A stretch of 64,000 bases of DNA from Bradyrhizobium sp. CB2312. Its GTDB lineage: Bacteria > Pseudomonadota > Alphaproteobacteria > Rhizobiales > Xanthobacteraceae. Of this stretch, positions 16,343-50,442 are shown piece after piece. The DNA is taken from NCBI RefSeq assembly GCF_029714425.1, contig NZ_CP121668.1, forward strand, positions 4,609,501-4,673,500, written 5' to 3'. The stretch's first letter is position 1. Each line of letters opens with the position of its first letter. Below the pieces are notes generated by a model, which was not told where the DNA came from, did no database searches, and saw nothing but the letters and a program-made list of their open reading frames with translations. The position numbers were made by a program, and so were the translations under genes.

Positions 16343-17065
16343 TTAGGCGACGGAAGGGGTATGTTTCCGTTTTAACCGCCTGTGCTTGCGCGGGGCGTCT
16401 AGTTTTGCCAGGTCATCGGCATTCAGGATGACGATTTGGCGTTGCCTTGGGTCATCCAAGAACTTCAGGTAACCCTTCCGCTTCAATGCACCAAACATAC
16501 GTGACACCGTCTCCAAGGTGAGGCCAAGATAGTCCGCAATATCACGGCGGCTCATTGGAAGGCCGATGACACCTGCTGATGTCAGGCGGCCATTCATCTC
16601 GAGAAGAAACGCTGCCACGCGTTCTCGCGCAGTGGTGCACCCCAAAAGGAGTATGTGATTCTCGACGTGCCGAAGATTGGCCGTTGTCATGGTCAGGAGG
16701 CTCCGAATCAGTCCAGGGTCGGTCTTGGCCACGCGTTCCAGGCTTTGGCGTTTAACAAGGCGAACCGTGGTGTCGACGATGGCTTCGGCTGTGAACCGAT
16801 GGAAATCGCCGTTGTCGAGACCGAAGATATCGCCAGGCAAGTGAAACGCCCCAATCAGGCGGCGACCGTCAGATAACAGCTTGTGGGTCCGAACCGCGCC
16901 TTCAATCACCTGATAGATATAGTCCGCAGGCTCCGCTTCTCCGAAAATCTCGGTGCCCTTGTTATATTTGAACTCGCCTGAACTGACTTTTGCATGAGAC
17001 AGGTCACCGAGCTCGCCAACAAGTCGAGGCTTTTTATTCGGGTCGGTACTGAGGTTTGCAAACAT
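16343..17065 (-). CDS. Crp/Fnr-family regulator, FixK-like
   Basis: About 240 residues. The start at 17065 has GGGGATC upstream; a start at 17083 is possible. An N-terminal cyclic-nucleotide-like beta barrel (GTEIFGEAEPADYIYQV, RLIGAFHLPGDIFGL) is followed by a long helix (RERVAAFLLEMNGRL) and a helix-turn-helix (MSRRDIADYLGLTLETVSRMFGALK). It lacks the N-terminal cysteine cluster of oxygen-sensing Fnr, so it belongs with FixK types that respond indirectly to low oxygen. A perfect FixK/FNR box lies 236 bases upstream at 17301. A decayed relative is at 2169-2321. Confidence 0.9.
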   Translation of the reverse strand: MFANLSTDPNKKPRLVGELGDLSHAKVSSGEFKYNKGTEIFGEAEPADYIYQVIEGAVRTHKLLSDGRRLIGAFHLPGDIFGLDNGDFHRFTAEAIVDTTVRLVKRQSLERVAKTDPGLIRSLLTMTTANLRHVENHILLLGCTTARERVAAFLLEMNGRLTSAGVIGLPMSRRDIADYLGLTLETVSRMFGALKRKGYLKFLDDPRQRQIVILNADDLAKLDAPRKHRRLKRKHTPSVA

Positions 17066-17300
17066 AGAGATCCCCAATCCCATACTGGTGCGGTATGAAC
17101 CTCAAGTAGATGCGATTGTGACACTCTACCTTAGTCTGGTGAAGGACACTAGCCTTGACCGCTGTCGACATCTGCCCCTGGGTGGACCATGGCAATGCCA
17201 CACCGTTCGCCTGCCGCGTGAATGTTATTCAAGTGGCTCCCGCGCGGCGGCTCTTGGCACCGATCTAAGCAATTGACCTCCCTTAGGCGCATCATTTCCC

Positions 17301-43062: not shown

Positions 43063-43788
43063 CTAAATTCTGCGTGTGTCATCATCAATGTGCAAATAAT
43101 CGGCATTGAACTCTGCAAGGGTTTCGAGTTCACCACGATTGAGCAGCAACACTTCGCCCTTTTTCCACTCGATCAAACCACGAGATCGAAGCTCTTGGAC
43201 CATCCGGTTGACATGCACAACCGATAGGCCGCAAGCGTCCGCCATGTTCTGCTGGGTGAATGGGAACTCGAAACTGTTGTTTCGCAAGAGACCGACCACT
43301 TCAAGGCGGAATGCAAGCTCACAGAAAAGGTGAGCGATCCTCGACAAGGCTGAAAGCGTTCCAAGGACTGCAACCCACTCCCGGAATACAGCACCATCTG
43401 TCAAAGTATCTCGCCAAAAAACATGAGTAAGCGGCGCGGATGATGTCAGCAGGCTGTGCAGATCCGAGTGCGGAATAAACGCCACTGTCGAAGGCCCCAC
43501 GCTGCAAAGATCATGGTCCATGCGCGGGAGGTGCAGAGTGTGCAAATCGGGAATATCGCCTGGAACGTACAGTGCGAGAATTTGCGATCGGCTGCCAACT
43601 ATCTTTTGGCGAAAAACATACCCGCTTACGACCGCGCCGCAGTGAGTGGCCGTATCTCCCTCGCGTAATATGTATTCGCCGTCAGCGAACTGCTTCAACT
43701 TAATGGGTAGTCCCAACAGTTGATCGCGCTCCATTGGGGACAAGTCATTAACAGCCTGTAAGCGGCCGATCAGCCTTTCGAGTGACAT
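43063..43788 (-). CDS. Crp/Fnr-family transcriptional regulator
   Basis: About 241 residues from MSLERLIGRLQAVNDLSPME; a start at 43833 is in frame. The N-terminal sensor barrel (GEYILREGDTATHCGAVVSG, LYVPGDIPDLHTLHL) is followed by a helix and a C-terminal helix-turn-helix (FPFTQQNMADACGLSVVHVN, RMVQELRSRGLIEW). No Fnr-type cysteine cluster. It diverges from the radical SAM operon, 548 bases away, and could regulate it. Different subgroup from the FixK-like gene at 16343. Confidence 0.9.
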   Translation of the reverse strand: MSLERLIGRLQAVNDLSPMERDQLLGLPIKLKQFADGEYILREGDTATHCGAVVSGYVFRQKIVGSRSQILALYVPGDIPDLHTLHLPRMDHDLCSVGPSTVAFIPHSDLHSLLTSSAPLTHVFWRDTLTDGAVFREWVAVLGTLSALSRIAHLFCELAFRLEVVGLLRNNSFEFPFTQQNMADACGLSVVHVNRMVQELRSRGLIEWKKGEVLLLNRGELETLAEFNADYLHIDDDTRRI

Positions 43789-43833
43789 CTTGTAGCCCCG
43801 CCTGAAGTTCAGGGAATTACCGTCTTCCTCCAC

Positions 43834-44335: not shown

Positions 44336-44503
44336 ATGCGCGCCATTTTTTGGATTGCGGCACAGGTATTGGCGGCGGTCTGCGCGGTCGCGATAGTGCT
44401 GTCGGTTATAGGCGCGGACAGCGATAGCATAGCGCACGGCGCTTCTGTTGCTGGGTTAATTGTTGCGGCCAGATCTTTGGTGAGACGACTGAGGGCTTCA
44501 TGA
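44336..44503 (+). CDS. Small membrane peptide, 55 aa, first gene of the radical SAM operon
   Basis: MRAIFWIAAQVLAAVCAVAI... Two hydrophobic stretches (residues 4-25 and 37-50), a linker with ADSDSIAHG, and a basic tail VRRLRAS. Its stop overlaps the start of the radical SAM gene (ATGA), so translation is coupled. It could be a membrane anchor, an immunity or export factor, or a peptide substrate. A start at 44318 is possible. No family recognised. Confidence 0.6.
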   Translation: MRAIFWIAAQVLAAVCAVAIVLSVIGADSDSIAHGASVAGLIVAARSLVRRLRAS

Positions 44504-46257
44504 TGAGTGGCCCCGCCCTGGATGCGATCTTTATCCGATTGGACCGACGGTCCGTCTACATTCCACGACCGCCGCCGAGCGAGCAGCTTGGTCTGCTTTA
44601 CGTGGCGACCGCAGCGGCGACTGCGGGATTCAATGTCGAAGTTTTTGATTCGCCGGCGCTAACCCTCGACGGTCTCATCGAACAGATTGGGATCGCAAGA
44701 CCTAACCTCGTCGGATTTTACGTTGACCACGAGAACGTTCACGCGACAATTTCACTGGGACAGCGAATAAAGGAGCATTGCTCAACGACAAAGCTGGTCG
44801 CCGGCGGCCCACAAGCTAGGGAGTGGGATGAGCGAATTGTGGATGCGGGTTTCGATGTAGCCGTACGATGCGAAGGCGAGCAGGTGATCGAATCTTTGAT
44901 CCGCTGGAGTCGCGGAGACCGCGAAGATCTGTCAGACATGCGTGGAGTGACGTGGGCATCAAACGGACGAACTCTCCGCAACCTCGACGCACCGGCGATT
45001 GACCTTGACCAGCTTCCTATCCCCGACCGGCTTCTCAATCTCGAACATAAGACGCCGAGCGGCACTGAAAGCATCATTACGGGGCGCGGCTGTCCTTTCC
45101 GATGCACCTTCTGCTATGAGGGACGCCCCGAGGCGAAATATCGAGCGCGTTCGCTCGACAACGTTCTCGCGGAACTCGAGTTTCTCGTCACGAAAAGGGC
45201 AGCGCGCTACATATCAGTGCTGGACGATGTGTTTACGCTGAATGCGAAGCGAGTGATTGCATTTGCCGAAGGCGTAAAGGATATAAAGAGGCGAACGGGC
45301 GCTGATTTTGTTTGGTTTTGCGAGGCGCGCGCAGACATCATCGTGAAACGGCCGGACATGGTCCATGCTTGTGTGGATGCTGGTTTGGTCAGGATGCAGA
45401 TAGGTATGGAGACTGGCAGCCAGGTTGTCCTGGACGCGTACAACAAGCAATTGCAAGTTGAAGATACCGCGCGGGCCGTCGAGATCTGCCGCGATGCGGA
45501 TGTTCTTTCGATGATCGGTAATTTCATCGTCGGTGGTGCGTGGGAAACTCATGAAACTGCGGAAATTACCCGCGACTTCGCCGCAAATTTGATCGAGCTG
45601 GCACCGGGCCGCGTCGACATAACGTCCACACTCTTTACACCGTATCCGGGTACGCCAATGCATGATCATCCCGATCGATTTGGTTTAGAGGTTCTCGACC
45701 CGGATTGCGTAACCGGTCCCGGCGACAATTATCCATTTGCGCGCACAGAGGCGCTGTCACAGTGGGATATTGTGGAACTGCGACAAAAACTTATTCATAG
45801 AGTGGACGAGAGCATGAAGAAGCATGGCCGATCCGTGCCGACAGAGTTGGGGGACCGGCACTTTCGTGCCTACCACTACTATGGCCTGCGCACAAACTGG
45901 TTCGATCATTTCTGTCAAAATTTTGCTTCGTACAATTATTTCGGAATGCCAGCGGCAAGTGTCGATATTCTACGTATGCACGATGTGACGAGCGACAAGC
46001 TACTGGATCTAAAGCCCATTCGAACTGTGGTGCTGGGGACAACGATTGATGGAAGTTTCATAGTTGATACAGGTTACGAGCGCCTGCAACTCGGGCGGGT
46101 TAGTGGGGCACTCTATGAATTGTGCGCAGGAAAGCTTCGCCTTCGAGAGATCGTGAGAACTCTCAAGAAGCGGAGTCTTCTTGAGACGGCAAGCGAAGCG
46201 GTCGACTTGTTGGCGACTTTTGACGCCAACCGACTGGTCGTTTTCAGTAAATACTAA
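44500..46257 (+). CDS. Cobalamin-binding radical SAM enzyme with a PqqD/RRE-like C-terminus
   Basis: A 585-residue protein in three parts. Residues 1-140 are a B12-binding Rossmann domain (EQLGLLYVATAAATAGFNVE, LVAGGPQ, CEGEQVIESL). Residues 190-430 are the radical SAM barrel: GCPFRCTFC holds the 4Fe-4S ligands C198, C202 and C205, with ISVLDDVF, FCEARADII and MQIGMETGSQ downstream. Residues about 500-585 (LGRVSGALYELCAGKLRLRE, then EAVDLLATFDANRLVV) look like a PqqD-type winged helix, the peptide-recognition element of RiPP enzymes. Such enzymes often methylate or rearrange unactivated carbons. Coupled to genes on both sides. The exact reaction cannot be inferred. Confidence 0.85.
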   Translation: MMSGPALDAIFIRLDRRSVYIPRPPPSEQLGLLYVATAAATAGFNVEVFDSPALTLDGLIEQIGIARPNLVGFYVDHENVHATISLGQRIKEHCSTTKLVAGGPQAREWDERIVDAGFDVAVRCEGEQVIESLIRWSRGDREDLSDMRGVTWASNGRTLRNLDAPAIDLDQLPIPDRLLNLEHKTPSGTESIITGRGCPFRCTFCYEGRPEAKYRARSLDNVLAELEFLVTKRAARYISVLDDVFTLNAKRVIAFAEGVKDIKRRTGADFVWFCEARADIIVKRPDMVHACVDAGLVRMQIGMETGSQVVLDAYNKQLQVEDTARAVEICRDADVLSMIGNFIVGGAWETHETAEITRDFAANLIELAPGRVDITSTLFTPYPGTPMHDHPDRFGLEVLDPDCVTGPGDNYPFARTEALSQWDIVELRQKLIHRVDESMKKHGRSVPTELGDRHFRAYHYYGLRTNWFDHFCQNFASYNYFGMPAASVDILRMHDVTSDKLLDLKPIRTVVLGTTIDGSFIVDTGYERLQLGRVSGALYELCAGKLRLREIVRTLKKRSLLETASEAVDLLATFDANRLVVFSKY

Positions 46258-46271
46258 TGGCGAGGAGAACG

Positions 46272-46625
46272 ATGGTGTCAGGTTCAACCGCGCAGACAGA
46301 ACTCCGCGTCCTTTCTGAAGAAGAATGGAGCGCTGCAATCGCCGCAAATCGCGTGCGCGGCAGCGACCAGCGTTCACTCATGACGCATATTATCCCTAGC
46401 GTCGGCCCCGGTAGTACCGAAAAGATCGATGTCGTCTTTTTCTTCGCGATCCCCGCGACGCTGGCGTATGAGGTCATTGCGGTCGTCGCGGGCGTGGTCG
46501 CTGGCGACATCGTCGGCAACAAATCGAAGGAACGATTCCTTCCGTCTAATGGTTTCAGCGTAGTTACGCTCCCGCCTATCCCGGTAACGAAGTCGCTAGC
46601 ACCACACCGTGGGACTCCCGGTTGA
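46272..46625 (+). CDS. Putative substrate or partner of the radical SAM enzyme, 117 aa
   Basis: The start at 46272 has GAGGAG five bases upstream; an ATG at 46257 overlapping the enzyme's stop is also possible. Residues 1-48 are polar with LSEEEWSAAIAANRVRGSDQ, leader-like. Residues 52-82 are strongly hydrophobic and Ala/Val/Gly-rich (VVFFFAIPATLAYEVIAVVA). The tail carries LPPIPVTKSLAPHRGTPG. It could be a peptide precursor with a hydrophobic core or a membrane protein. No cysteine. No family recognised; the substrate role is inference from position. Confidence 0.6.
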   Translation: MVSGSTAQTELRVLSEEEWSAAIAANRVRGSDQRSLMTHIIPSVGPGSTEKIDVVFFFAIPATLAYEVIAVVAGVVAGDIVGNKSKERFLPSNGFSVVTLPPIPVTKSLAPHRGTPG

Positions 46626-48134
46626 ATAGTAGTGCCTCGGCGTTTCTGAGAGTCGGCGGCCGACTGTCGAACTTCTGACATGGTGACCGCCGCGCGAATC
46701 AGCGCAAGCAGGTTGCATTGACGTATACCCTGCAACCGGTCGGTGCCGTAGCGGCCGTGCTGCGTTATCCTACCTTTCCAACATGAATTTGCGGAGCTTC
46801 CGACGTCAGGACTCGCTATTTCCCGTTCAGCGCAGCAGCGATCTTGCCGCCGATTGCCTCAACGGCACGGCGGGCCGCCTCGTCCGCGAGGTGGGCATAT
46901 CGCTGTGTCGTGCTCGGATCGGCGTGCCCGAGCAGGGTACCAATAACAGGCAGGCCCATCTGGTCACCAATCCCAACGCTGGCAAAGCTGTGCCGCAGGT
47001 CGTGGATCCTGACGCCGGTCACGCCGGCCCGCTTGCAAATGGCTGTCCATGGGCGCTTCAGGTCTGCGCGCGGCTTCTCATTCTTGGTCCCCGCCGATTC
47101 TCCCGCAATCACAAACGCGCCCAGCTTGGTAAGGGATCTGATGATATCGACAGCGGCAGTCGGTAGGTAAATCGTCTTCTTGCCGGTCTTAGAGTCGGGC
47201 AGGCGTAGGACGCCGCGCTCCAGGTCAACTTCATCCCAGCGCAGGTGCAGAATTTCCCGCAATCGACCGCCCGTGAGCATGAGCAGTCTGACAGCGGCGG
47301 TTGCGTAAGGTGACATCTTTACAAGCTGCCCAACAGGCGCGTGCTTGGCGTCGCCGGCATCTACCGGAAGGCCAACAGTCTCGGCCTCTATCATCGCGTT
47401 GCCAATTGCCAGCAGCTCGGCGGTGGTCAGATAGCGCTCACGGCCTTCCTCTTCATTCAGTTTCGCGCCAGATGCCGGATTCATGCCTTCAGGCACATGA
47501 CCATGGCGCGAGCCCCAGCCGTAGGCCGCAGATACGAGCTTGATGGCCCGATTAGCCGATACGCGGGCCTCGCGCGTCATCAGGGCGTGTGCGCGCTGTA
47601 CATCTACCCTTGTCAGGACCGCCGCTTTTGTTGTGCCCAGCCGAGGCTCAACGTGCTTCTTGAGCAACATGCGATAGAGGTTGGCGGTCGACGCCTTCTT
47701 GTGCTCCTGGACGTACTCGTCGATGTATTTCGAGACCAGCGCTTTAACGGTCAGGCTTGCCCGCTCGTCGCTCCGATTTTGAGCAAGGTCTTTTCCCAGC
47801 GCGGCGTTGGCAATCGCCTTGCGGGCCGCCTCGCGGGCCTCATTGGCCTTCAGGGTGCCAACCCGCCCTAGCTTCTGCGGATTCCGACGAAGTCGCCCGG
47901 GTGTACCGATATGAAGTCGCCCGGGGATTCCGAGACGATGTCGCCCACCTTTCCGATTTGATCTCGCCCGGGAGCGAGGCATTCTGGCCGATAGATTTTC
48001 TGGCATTGGGCGAGCCGGGCGGTCAACCCGGAATCGCGGCTTGAACTCTTCTGTTTCTGTTGCGGTTGCTGTGGGCATGTGGGCAACGCCTTGGCGTTGT
48101 CCAAGCGCAGCGGCATGTCCACAGGGCGACGGGC

Positions 48135-48889: not shown

Positions 48890-50442
48890 CTAATTGTAGT
48901 AGCGCGGTCCGCGGATGTTGGCATGCAGGATCGGCGCATCGTCCGCGGAGCGCTGGTGAGCAGGACGCCGATCGAGATTATTGGCGAGGATCGACTTGAC
49001 CGAGCCATAGGTGCGCGCGCCGATGTCGATCGCCCGCGCAGCCGCGGCGTCCAGCCGTTCGCGCCCATAGGAGGCGGCGAGCCTGAGGATGCCGAGGCAG
49101 GCGCGGAAGCCTTGCTCGGGGTGCGAGCGCTCGTCGAGAATGAGGTCGCACAACGCGCTGGTCGCCGGCCCGATCGCGGCGGCGTCCTGGCGGATACGCG
49201 CGATGGTCCAGCCGGCGTAGCGCCGATGGCTGGAGGCCATGTGCTCCGGCACGGTGGTGTGTTTGTGATTGCCGCTCATGCGCTGATGCGCGGCGATCCG
49301 CTCGCCCTTGTGGAAGATCTCGACGGTGCGGGCCGTGAACCGCACCTCGACCTCGGCGCGGGCGAAGCGATGCGGAACGCTGTAGTAATGCTTCTCCACC
49401 TCGACGTGGTAATCGAGACTGACGCGGCGGATTCGCCACTCGGCGAGGACGTAGGGGACACCGGCAATGGCTTGAGCGCCGGCCGGTCGACCTCCTCGAG
49501 CAACCGGCGGCGTGTCACGCCGAGCCGTCGGATCGGCCGTTCCTCGTTCAGCCTCGTGAGCAGTTCGCCGATCGCCGCATTGACCTCGGCCAGGCTGTAG
49601 AAGGTGCGATGACGCAGGCGACCGAGCAGCCAGCGCTCGACGATGAGGACGGCCTGCTCGACCTTGGCCTTGTCGCGCGGCTTGCGCGGCCGCGCCGGCA
49701 AGATGGCGGTGCCGTAATGCGCCGCCATCTCCGCATAGGTACGATTGATCTGCGGGTCGTACAGGCTCGCCTTGATGACCGCGACCTTGGTGTTGTCGGG
49801 CACCAGCAGCGCCGGTATGCCGCCGATCGCCGCGAAGGCGCCAACATGGGCGCTGATCCAGTCGGCGAGCCCCTGCGTCCACGTCGCCTGCGCGTAGGTG
49901 AAGCTCGATGCGCCGAGCACGGCGACGAAGATCTGCGCCGTTCTGCGCTCACCGGTCAGGCGGTCGACCACCACCGGCACGCCATCGCCGGCGTAGTCGA
50001 CAAACAGCTTGTCGCCAGCCACATGGGCCTGGCGCATCGTCACCGACAGACGGCCCTCCCAGGCGCGGTAGAGCTCACAGAAGCGCGAGTACCGGTATCC
50101 GCCGGGCTCGGTGGCGATATATTCCTCCCACAGGATCGACAGCGTCACGTGCTTGCGTTTGAGCTCGCGGTGCACCGTCGCCCAGTCGGGCTCGGCGATG
50201 CGGCGGTGACCCTGACGGTTGCCATTGCCGGTCTTAGCGAACAGGCGAAGTTCCAGAACCGTGTCGGTGACGTCGTCTGGCAACGGCCAGCTCAAGCCCG
50301 CGGCCTCGAACCGCCGGAGCGCCAGCCGCACCGTCGAGGGTGCCGCCCCCACCCGTCGCGCAATCTCGCGGCTCGGCAGCCCGGCCGCCTTCATTCTGAT
50401 CACATCGCGCACACGGCGCATCGCAAGCCTCTCCGTCGGCAT
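48890..50442 (-). pseudogene. istA: IS21 transposase IstA, frameshifted
   Basis: From MPTERLAMRRVRDVIRMKAA the frame covers the helix-turn-helix (GLPSREIARRVGAAPSTVRL) and the DDE core (LFVDYAGDGVPVV, LLVPDNTKVAV, KAKVEQAVLIVERWLL), then leaves frame near 49455 after ALKPLP. Another frame carries the C-terminal domain (YVLAEWRIRRVSLDYHVEVE, YYSVPHRFARAEVEVRFTAR) to 48890. The element therefore has a broken transposase and cannot move alone. Confidence 0.88.

Follow-up and report, generated by a model that had tools for sequence, protein, structure and literature searches.

A candidate RRE-fused cobalamin radical SAM cassette with a glycine-zipper small protein in Bradyrhizobium

Introduction

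Several cobalamin (B12)-dependent radical S-adenosylmethionine (SAM) enzymes have been described that act on ribosomally synthesised and post-translationally modified peptides (RiPPs). ApyD, of the aminopyruvatide pathway, contains a RiPP recognition element (RRE) and is reported, in the sections consulted of PMC10635010 and PMC11002830, to β-methylate a tyrosine of its ribosomal precursor, while PoyC methylates a valine (consulted sections of PMC5682303). Here, we analyzed a cassette of three same-strand genes within a 64,000-nucleotide stretch of the Bradyrhizobium sp. CB2312 genome (contig NZ_CP121668.1, positions 4,609,501 to 4,673,500; hereafter the window, whose numbering is used throughout). 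These genes encode a 55-amino acid (aa) membrane peptide, a 585-aa enzyme, and a 117-aa protein, and a first-pass annotation, made from the letters alone, had proposed that they form a peptide-modification operon. Our sequence comparisons and structure predictions support such a reading. We consider it probable that this is a minimal RRE-fused, cobalamin-dependent peptide-modifying cassette, in which the RRE grips the 117-aa protein as substrate, the enzyme alters a conserved motif, and the product is a membrane peptide. Of the enzymes of this type that have been characterised, ApyD comes closest; its precursor and gene surroundings differ from those described below.

Results

A cobalamin radical SAM enzyme with a predicted recognition domain

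The three genes have exactly the coordinates and frames first noted (Table 1). The membrane peptide and enzyme genes overlap by four bases (ATGA at 44500-44503), and the ATG of the third gene lies 14 bases 3' of the enzyme stop with GAGGAG in front, although an alternative in-frame ATG at 46257 would give a 122-aa instead of a 117-aa product. Both features of class B enzymes, a B12-binding domain and a CxxxCxxC radical SAM core, are present in the 585-aa protein with Pfam scores above the cut-offs, as the first reading of the letters had suggested. Full-length relatives are 51–68% identical, and one of them, likewise 585 aa long, aligns end-to-end with the frame at 68% identity, which rules out an artefactual chance open reading frame. 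Pfam PqqD does not match the window enzyme itself and matches 10 of the 20 aligned members at E ≤ 0.1. AlphaFold2 predicts with high confidence that the last 89 residues adopt an RRE/PqqD-like fold, with strands and helices in the order E-E-E-H-H-H-E, and the predicted model structurally matches RREs. The PqqD/RRE-like C-terminus proposed at first was thus recovered by structure prediction, and one hallmark of an RRE-dependent RiPP pathway, a PqqD-like RRE in the modifying enzyme, is present as a predicted fold.

Elsewhere in the same genome, outside the window, six more radical SAM protein matches were found that are just 26–30% identical to the enzyme. Separately, one PADLOC candidate-defence model matches the generic B12/radical SAM core at 43.1 bits, which we did not count as evidence of a defence role.

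A small protein conserved beside the enzyme

The enzyme and the small protein recur together. On a Geobacteraceae contig (L001), an enzyme 43% identical to the window enzyme lies within three genes in equivalent order, and the third gene, of 106–109 aa, stands directly behind it with a strong AGGAGGTGATC site in front. The window and L001 third-gene products share EVxAVxAGxVAGxIxGxK (12/19 identical), with a local alignment score reached by 0 of 5000 shuffles. A second hallmark of RRE-dependent RiPP pathways, a short gene conserved next to the enzyme across unrelated genomes, was thus found, and the check proposed at first, co-occurrence of the 117-aa gene with enzyme homologues, came out in favor of the pairing. 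In addition, small-protein relative P0128 and enzyme P0013 are each listed with a jgi contig of 4854 bases, so these two are probably co-located.

A single-sequence search with the 117-aa protein against 5.8 billion proteins, which sees only relatives sharing exact 5-residue words, returned the protein itself only. A query combining it with its L001 partner retrieved seven more relatives, including a protein with 96% identity to that of L001. Across the resulting nine sequences, conservation is concentrated in a C-terminal motif, with 9 of 20 columns invariant against 3 of 78 elsewhere (columns with ≥7 letters). The motif common to these small proteins can be written EV(G/I)AVxxGxxAG(E/D)IxxxK, and the last two of the 20 motif columns vary (Ser/Thr/Ala, then Lys/His). 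In the window protein, small residues are spaced as A70-x3-G74-x3-G78-x3-G82, a glycine-zipper pattern. When a profile of the eight relatives without the window protein was run on the 9.78-Mb genome, the 117-aa gene was the sole match at E ≤ 10 (E 1.3e-4), with the match spanning the motif region only; this test is partly dependent because seven of these relatives had been retrieved with the window protein in the query profile. The small gene is unique in this genome.

The first-pass annotation had seen a polar, leader-like start: the composition bears this out, but comparisons brought out no relation to other leaders, since the N-terminal 60 aa gave no profile match to the relatives' leaders and, in eight comparisons, 295–1783 of 3000 shuffles were equally good. 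The attempt to establish leader homology failed on these grounds, and a shared recognisable leader, which would be expected of an RRE-dependent RiPP pathway, was not found. Neither the 117-aa nor the 55-aa protein has a Pfam or NCBIfam match above cut-off, in line with the initial view that both fall outside known families. Among the nine small-protein members, Pfam gave nothing above cut-off for the two scanned, and the NCBIfam scan of all nine produced two hits, each in a single member and to an unrelated model (E 0.019 and 0.04). Pfam and NCBIfam detected neither a Nif11 leader nor a proteusin-type (nitrile hydratase-like) leader in the 117-aa protein, and NCBIfam found no Nif11 leader in the nine members at E ≤ 1.

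Table 1 Features of the cassette and of its Geobacteraceae counterpart
Feature	Position	Strand	Basis
55-aa membrane peptide	44336..44503	+	Kyte-Doolittle 19-residue mean of 2.69 starting at residue 7, one strong hydrophobic stretch
Cobalamin-binding radical SAM enzyme with C-terminal RRE-like domain, 585 aa	44500..46257	+	Pfam, NCBIfam, alignment of relatives
B12-binding domain, residues 28-133	44581..44898	+	Pfam PF02310, 39.8 bits, cut-off 32.1
Radical SAM core, residues 192-360	45073..45579	+	Pfam PF04055 (Radical_SAM), 66.7 bits, cut-off 29.5
CxxxCxxC cluster motif, residues 198-205	45091..45114	+	Kept in 20/20 aligned members
Predicted RRE/PqqD-like domain, residues 497-585	45988..46254	+	AlphaFold2 pLDDT 93.0, pTM 0.84
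GAGGAG, likely ribosome-binding site of the 117-aa gene	46262..46267	+	Sequence; L001 has AGGAGGTGATC in the equivalent place
117-aa small protein, proposed substrate/precursor	46272..46625	+	Profile and alignment of relatives
C-terminal glycine-zipper motif EVIAVVAGVVAGDIVGNKSK, residues 67-86, proposed core	46470..46529	+	9/20 columns invariant
L001 membrane peptide, 66 aa	L001:2958-3158		Ends in ATGA overlap with the enzyme gene

The 55-aa membrane peptide

By eye, the 55-aa peptide has a second hydrophobic stretch and a basic C-terminus. Its position, ATGA overlap, and hydrophobic character recur in the 66-aa peptide of L001. The sequence similarity of the two is not above controls (2574 of 5000 shuffles align equally well), and the attempt to establish their homology failed. 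This peptide may serve as an immunity protein, an anchor, or a partner. One could also imagine the roles exchanged, with the 55-aa peptide as substrate and the 117-aa protein as an accessory or immunity factor, given that the 55-aa gene is the one overlapping the enzyme gene both here and in L001; this we hold to be very improbable, as it is the third gene that is conserved in sequence, while the similarity of the 55-aa peptide does not exceed that of shuffles.

Proposed mode of action

The preferred explanation, with the 117-aa protein as the likely substrate, would proceed as follows. Through its C-terminal RRE-like domain, the enzyme would grip the 117-aa protein, after which its cobalamin and radical SAM domains would alter unactivated carbons in the conserved, hydrophobic EVxAVxAGxVAGDIxGxK segment of that protein. 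The chemistry is most likely C-methylation of Val/Ile side chains, yielding a product that is probably a membrane-inserting, self-associating helix of the glycine-zipper type. The 55-aa peptide may act alongside this product in the membrane, as a partner or immunity protein. No protease or exporter was found among the 20 scanned of the 82 window frames of at least 150 aa, in agreement with the first impression that none stands alongside, and a fair surmise is that the product remains associated with the cell membrane.

Methylation is, however, one of several outcomes conceivable for such an enzyme. B12 radical SAM enzymes of RiPP clusters include cross-linkers, such as PbsB, which joins ortho-tyrosines (consulted sections of PMC12257519), and the window enzyme might likewise introduce a cross-link or another radical rearrangement into its peptide. 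This seems improbable to us, because the motif lacks Phe, Tyr, Trp, and Cys, and cobalamin radical SAM enzymes are predominantly associated with methylation in the text consulted of PMC13142503. C-methylation of the motif stays the likely modification.

Relatives of the enzyme and an alternative role for the small protein

In a 23-row enzyme tree, the window enzyme belongs to a clade of 7 that adjoins a clade of 4 with L001-type enzymes. A third clade holds 7 rows (P0015, P0017-P0022), one named Desulforhopalus, and three Acetobacterium rows sit on very long branches. In the Acetobacterium genome (L002), the best enzyme is 33% identical, and five family matches form one cluster. The enzymes there are 567–585 aa long, plus one 1225-aa double, and three small peptides adjoin, both scanned ones matching Nif11 leaders above cut-off; the cluster then continues with HlyD and C39-peptidase ATP-binding cassette (ABC) exporter genes. 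A comparable Acetobacterium cluster is mentioned in the consulted part of PMC6925170. The 1225-aa frame (L002:4251-7928) gave two separate matches, as it contains a tandem pair of B12 radical SAM units from this enzyme family.

A Desulfosporosinus locus (L003:473-9225) carries an enzyme relative in pieces, with 54% identity in the best segment. Its scanned neighbours include aminotransferase, DAGK-type, AIR-synthase-type, and SPASM radical SAM genes, and ketosynthase- and epimerase-like genes were recognised by eye. Neither the L002 nor the L003 genome yielded the small-protein gene. Two aspects of the Desulfosporosinus locus count against a dedicated peptide-modifying pair: the broken enzyme relative lacks the small partner, and its gene surroundings speak for at least one other use of this enzyme lineage.

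These observations bear on a different explanation, in which the 117-aa protein is a membrane partner or anchor and the enzyme's substrate is a different protein or a lipid, much as HpnR and BchE act on hopanoids and porphyrins. MgmA, which methylates a glutamine of methyl-coenzyme M reductase (MCR; consulted sections of PMC11796369), is an example of a B12 radical SAM enzyme with a protein substrate. The best NCBIfam matches of the window enzyme include BchE (120.5 bits, cut-off 481.35), HpnR (105.2, cut-off 650), and the MCR glutamine methylase model (82.6 bits), alongside HpnJ (98.8, cut-off 577.6), every one of them well short of its cut-off. What is conserved in the small protein is moreover a hydrophobic zipper and not a variable core, and the broken Desulfosporosinus homologue lies near the aminotransferase-, DAGK-, SPASM-, ketosynthase-, and epimerase-type genes listed above. 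Against this role stand the predicted RRE-like domain of the enzyme, the Nif11 precursors that adjoin the wider enzyme family, and the small protein itself, for which AlphaFold2 gave no usable fold (pLDDT 41.6), although the shallow alignment of just 9 sequences may explain this. On balance, we regard a partner or anchor role as unlikely.

Distribution and genomic surroundings

The enzyme subfamily was sought in overlapping genome samples, scoring the best 3–6 candidates per genome at E ≤ 1e-40 in the family sample and E ≤ 1e-100 in the others. Around the window genome, it was detected in 1/296 genomes of the family, 1/249 of the order, 1/225 of the class, and 1/349 of the phylum, in each case the window's own genome. 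Around L001, the counts were 1/345 for the phylum and 1/214 for the class, again only the L001 genome. In the phylum of L003 the count was 0/299, a sample without a positive control because the broken L003 copy itself fell below the threshold. Overall, this rare and scattered occurrence in the sampled genomes suggests horizontal transfer. No NCBI source is given for 17 of the 20 best enzyme relatives (P0004-P0023).

Viral contigs scanned with the enzyme and small-protein alignments yielded no relatives. The enzyme matched 125 plasmid and 3 phage records, none at 80% coverage, and those listed show 21–32% identity over 57–68% of the query; the 117-aa protein had no plasmid match at E ≤ 1. Streptomyces phage SF3 carries a B12-binding radical SAM gene (NC_028952.1:26253-27452) that is 31% identical over 65% of the query.

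The whole window lies inside one 9.78-Mb contig and carries IS21-, IS66-, and IS110-type transposase genes and an integrase. Across the cassette, G+C is 0.55 (2-kb windows) against 0.59–0.67 from 46 kb onward, and similarly low values occur at 1–4 kb. The integrase gene (Phage_integrase; 46816-48078) is on the opposite strand directly downstream of the cassette, and a Crp/Fnr-type regulator (43063-43833) is on the opposite strand upstream; a second Crp/Fnr-type regulator lies at 16343-17083. The IS21 transposase is split into two overlapping frames (48890-49882 and 49276-50442), making a frameshift likely. IS21 DNA beside the cassette shares 93–97% identity with the top four plasmid records, all of them from Bradyrhizobium, with 96.6% as the highest value, and 38 of the 70 records matching this region are from that genus. 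The 12 plasmid matches listed all start at or after base 47867, so none of these covers the cassette. No tRNA was found within the window, nor any Rfam match at gathering scores. A regulation scan gave one inverted repeat (12 bases, 83%), 1 promoter-like site against 1.9 in shuffles, and 6 terminator-like sites against 2.7 (standard deviation 1.9).

Discussion

Under the peptide-modifying reading, this compact two-protein system could reveal how cobalamin radical SAM enzymes choose and alter unreactive aliphatic side chains, and would extend cobalamin radical SAM chemistry to glycine-zipper membrane peptides. A broader, more tentative proposal is that the cassette represents a new class of ribosomal peptides: membrane helices of the glycine-zipper type, C-methylated on aliphatic side chains by a single RRE-fused cobalamin radical SAM enzyme and retained, with neither protease nor exporter, in the producer's membrane together with a small membrane partner. 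We see this as possible but doubtful. If true, the core would be fixed and the leader variable, contrary to most RiPPs.

Searches of an open-access library yielded no description of this enzyme/small-protein pairing, and the consulted sections of PMC12710340 and PMC13331322 contained nothing on RRE-fused B12 radical SAM enzymes. Among better-described systems, the rSAM_ocin_1 RiPP C-methyltransferases share superfamily and general role with the window enzyme, which scores 71.9 bits on that model (TIGR03975) against a cut-off of 281.85. The class B RiPP methyltransferases PoyB/PoyC and TsrM share its cobalamin and radical SAM architecture; PoyB/PoyC, however, have a Cx7Cx2C motif according to the consulted text of PMC5682303, whereas the window enzyme has CxxxCxxC, and the 117-aa protein matches no proteusin-type leader. 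The Nif11-leader clusters of Acetobacterium share the wider enzyme family and small-peptide neighbours with the window cassette, but their Nif11 leader and C39 exporter were both absent from what was found here.

ApyD comes closest, in that there too an RRE is fused to a cobalamin radical SAM enzyme. Its model (NF050148) is the second-best NCBIfam match of the window enzyme, at 117.1 bits against a cut-off of 750 and over residues 29-390 only. Unlike the aminopyruvatide pathway, the window showed no P450 or MNIO in its 20 scanned frames, and the 117-aa protein ends in GTPG rather than in the Tyr/Asp-type end described in the sections consulted for the aminopyruvatide precursor. What distinguishes the window cassette from ApyD is the family of its precursor, its membrane peptide, and the fact that no protease or exporter was detected. 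Taken together, the small-protein family is an undescribed one and, as judged from sequence and predicted fold, the cassette appears to be RRE-fused cobalamin radical SAM peptide modification in a new form.
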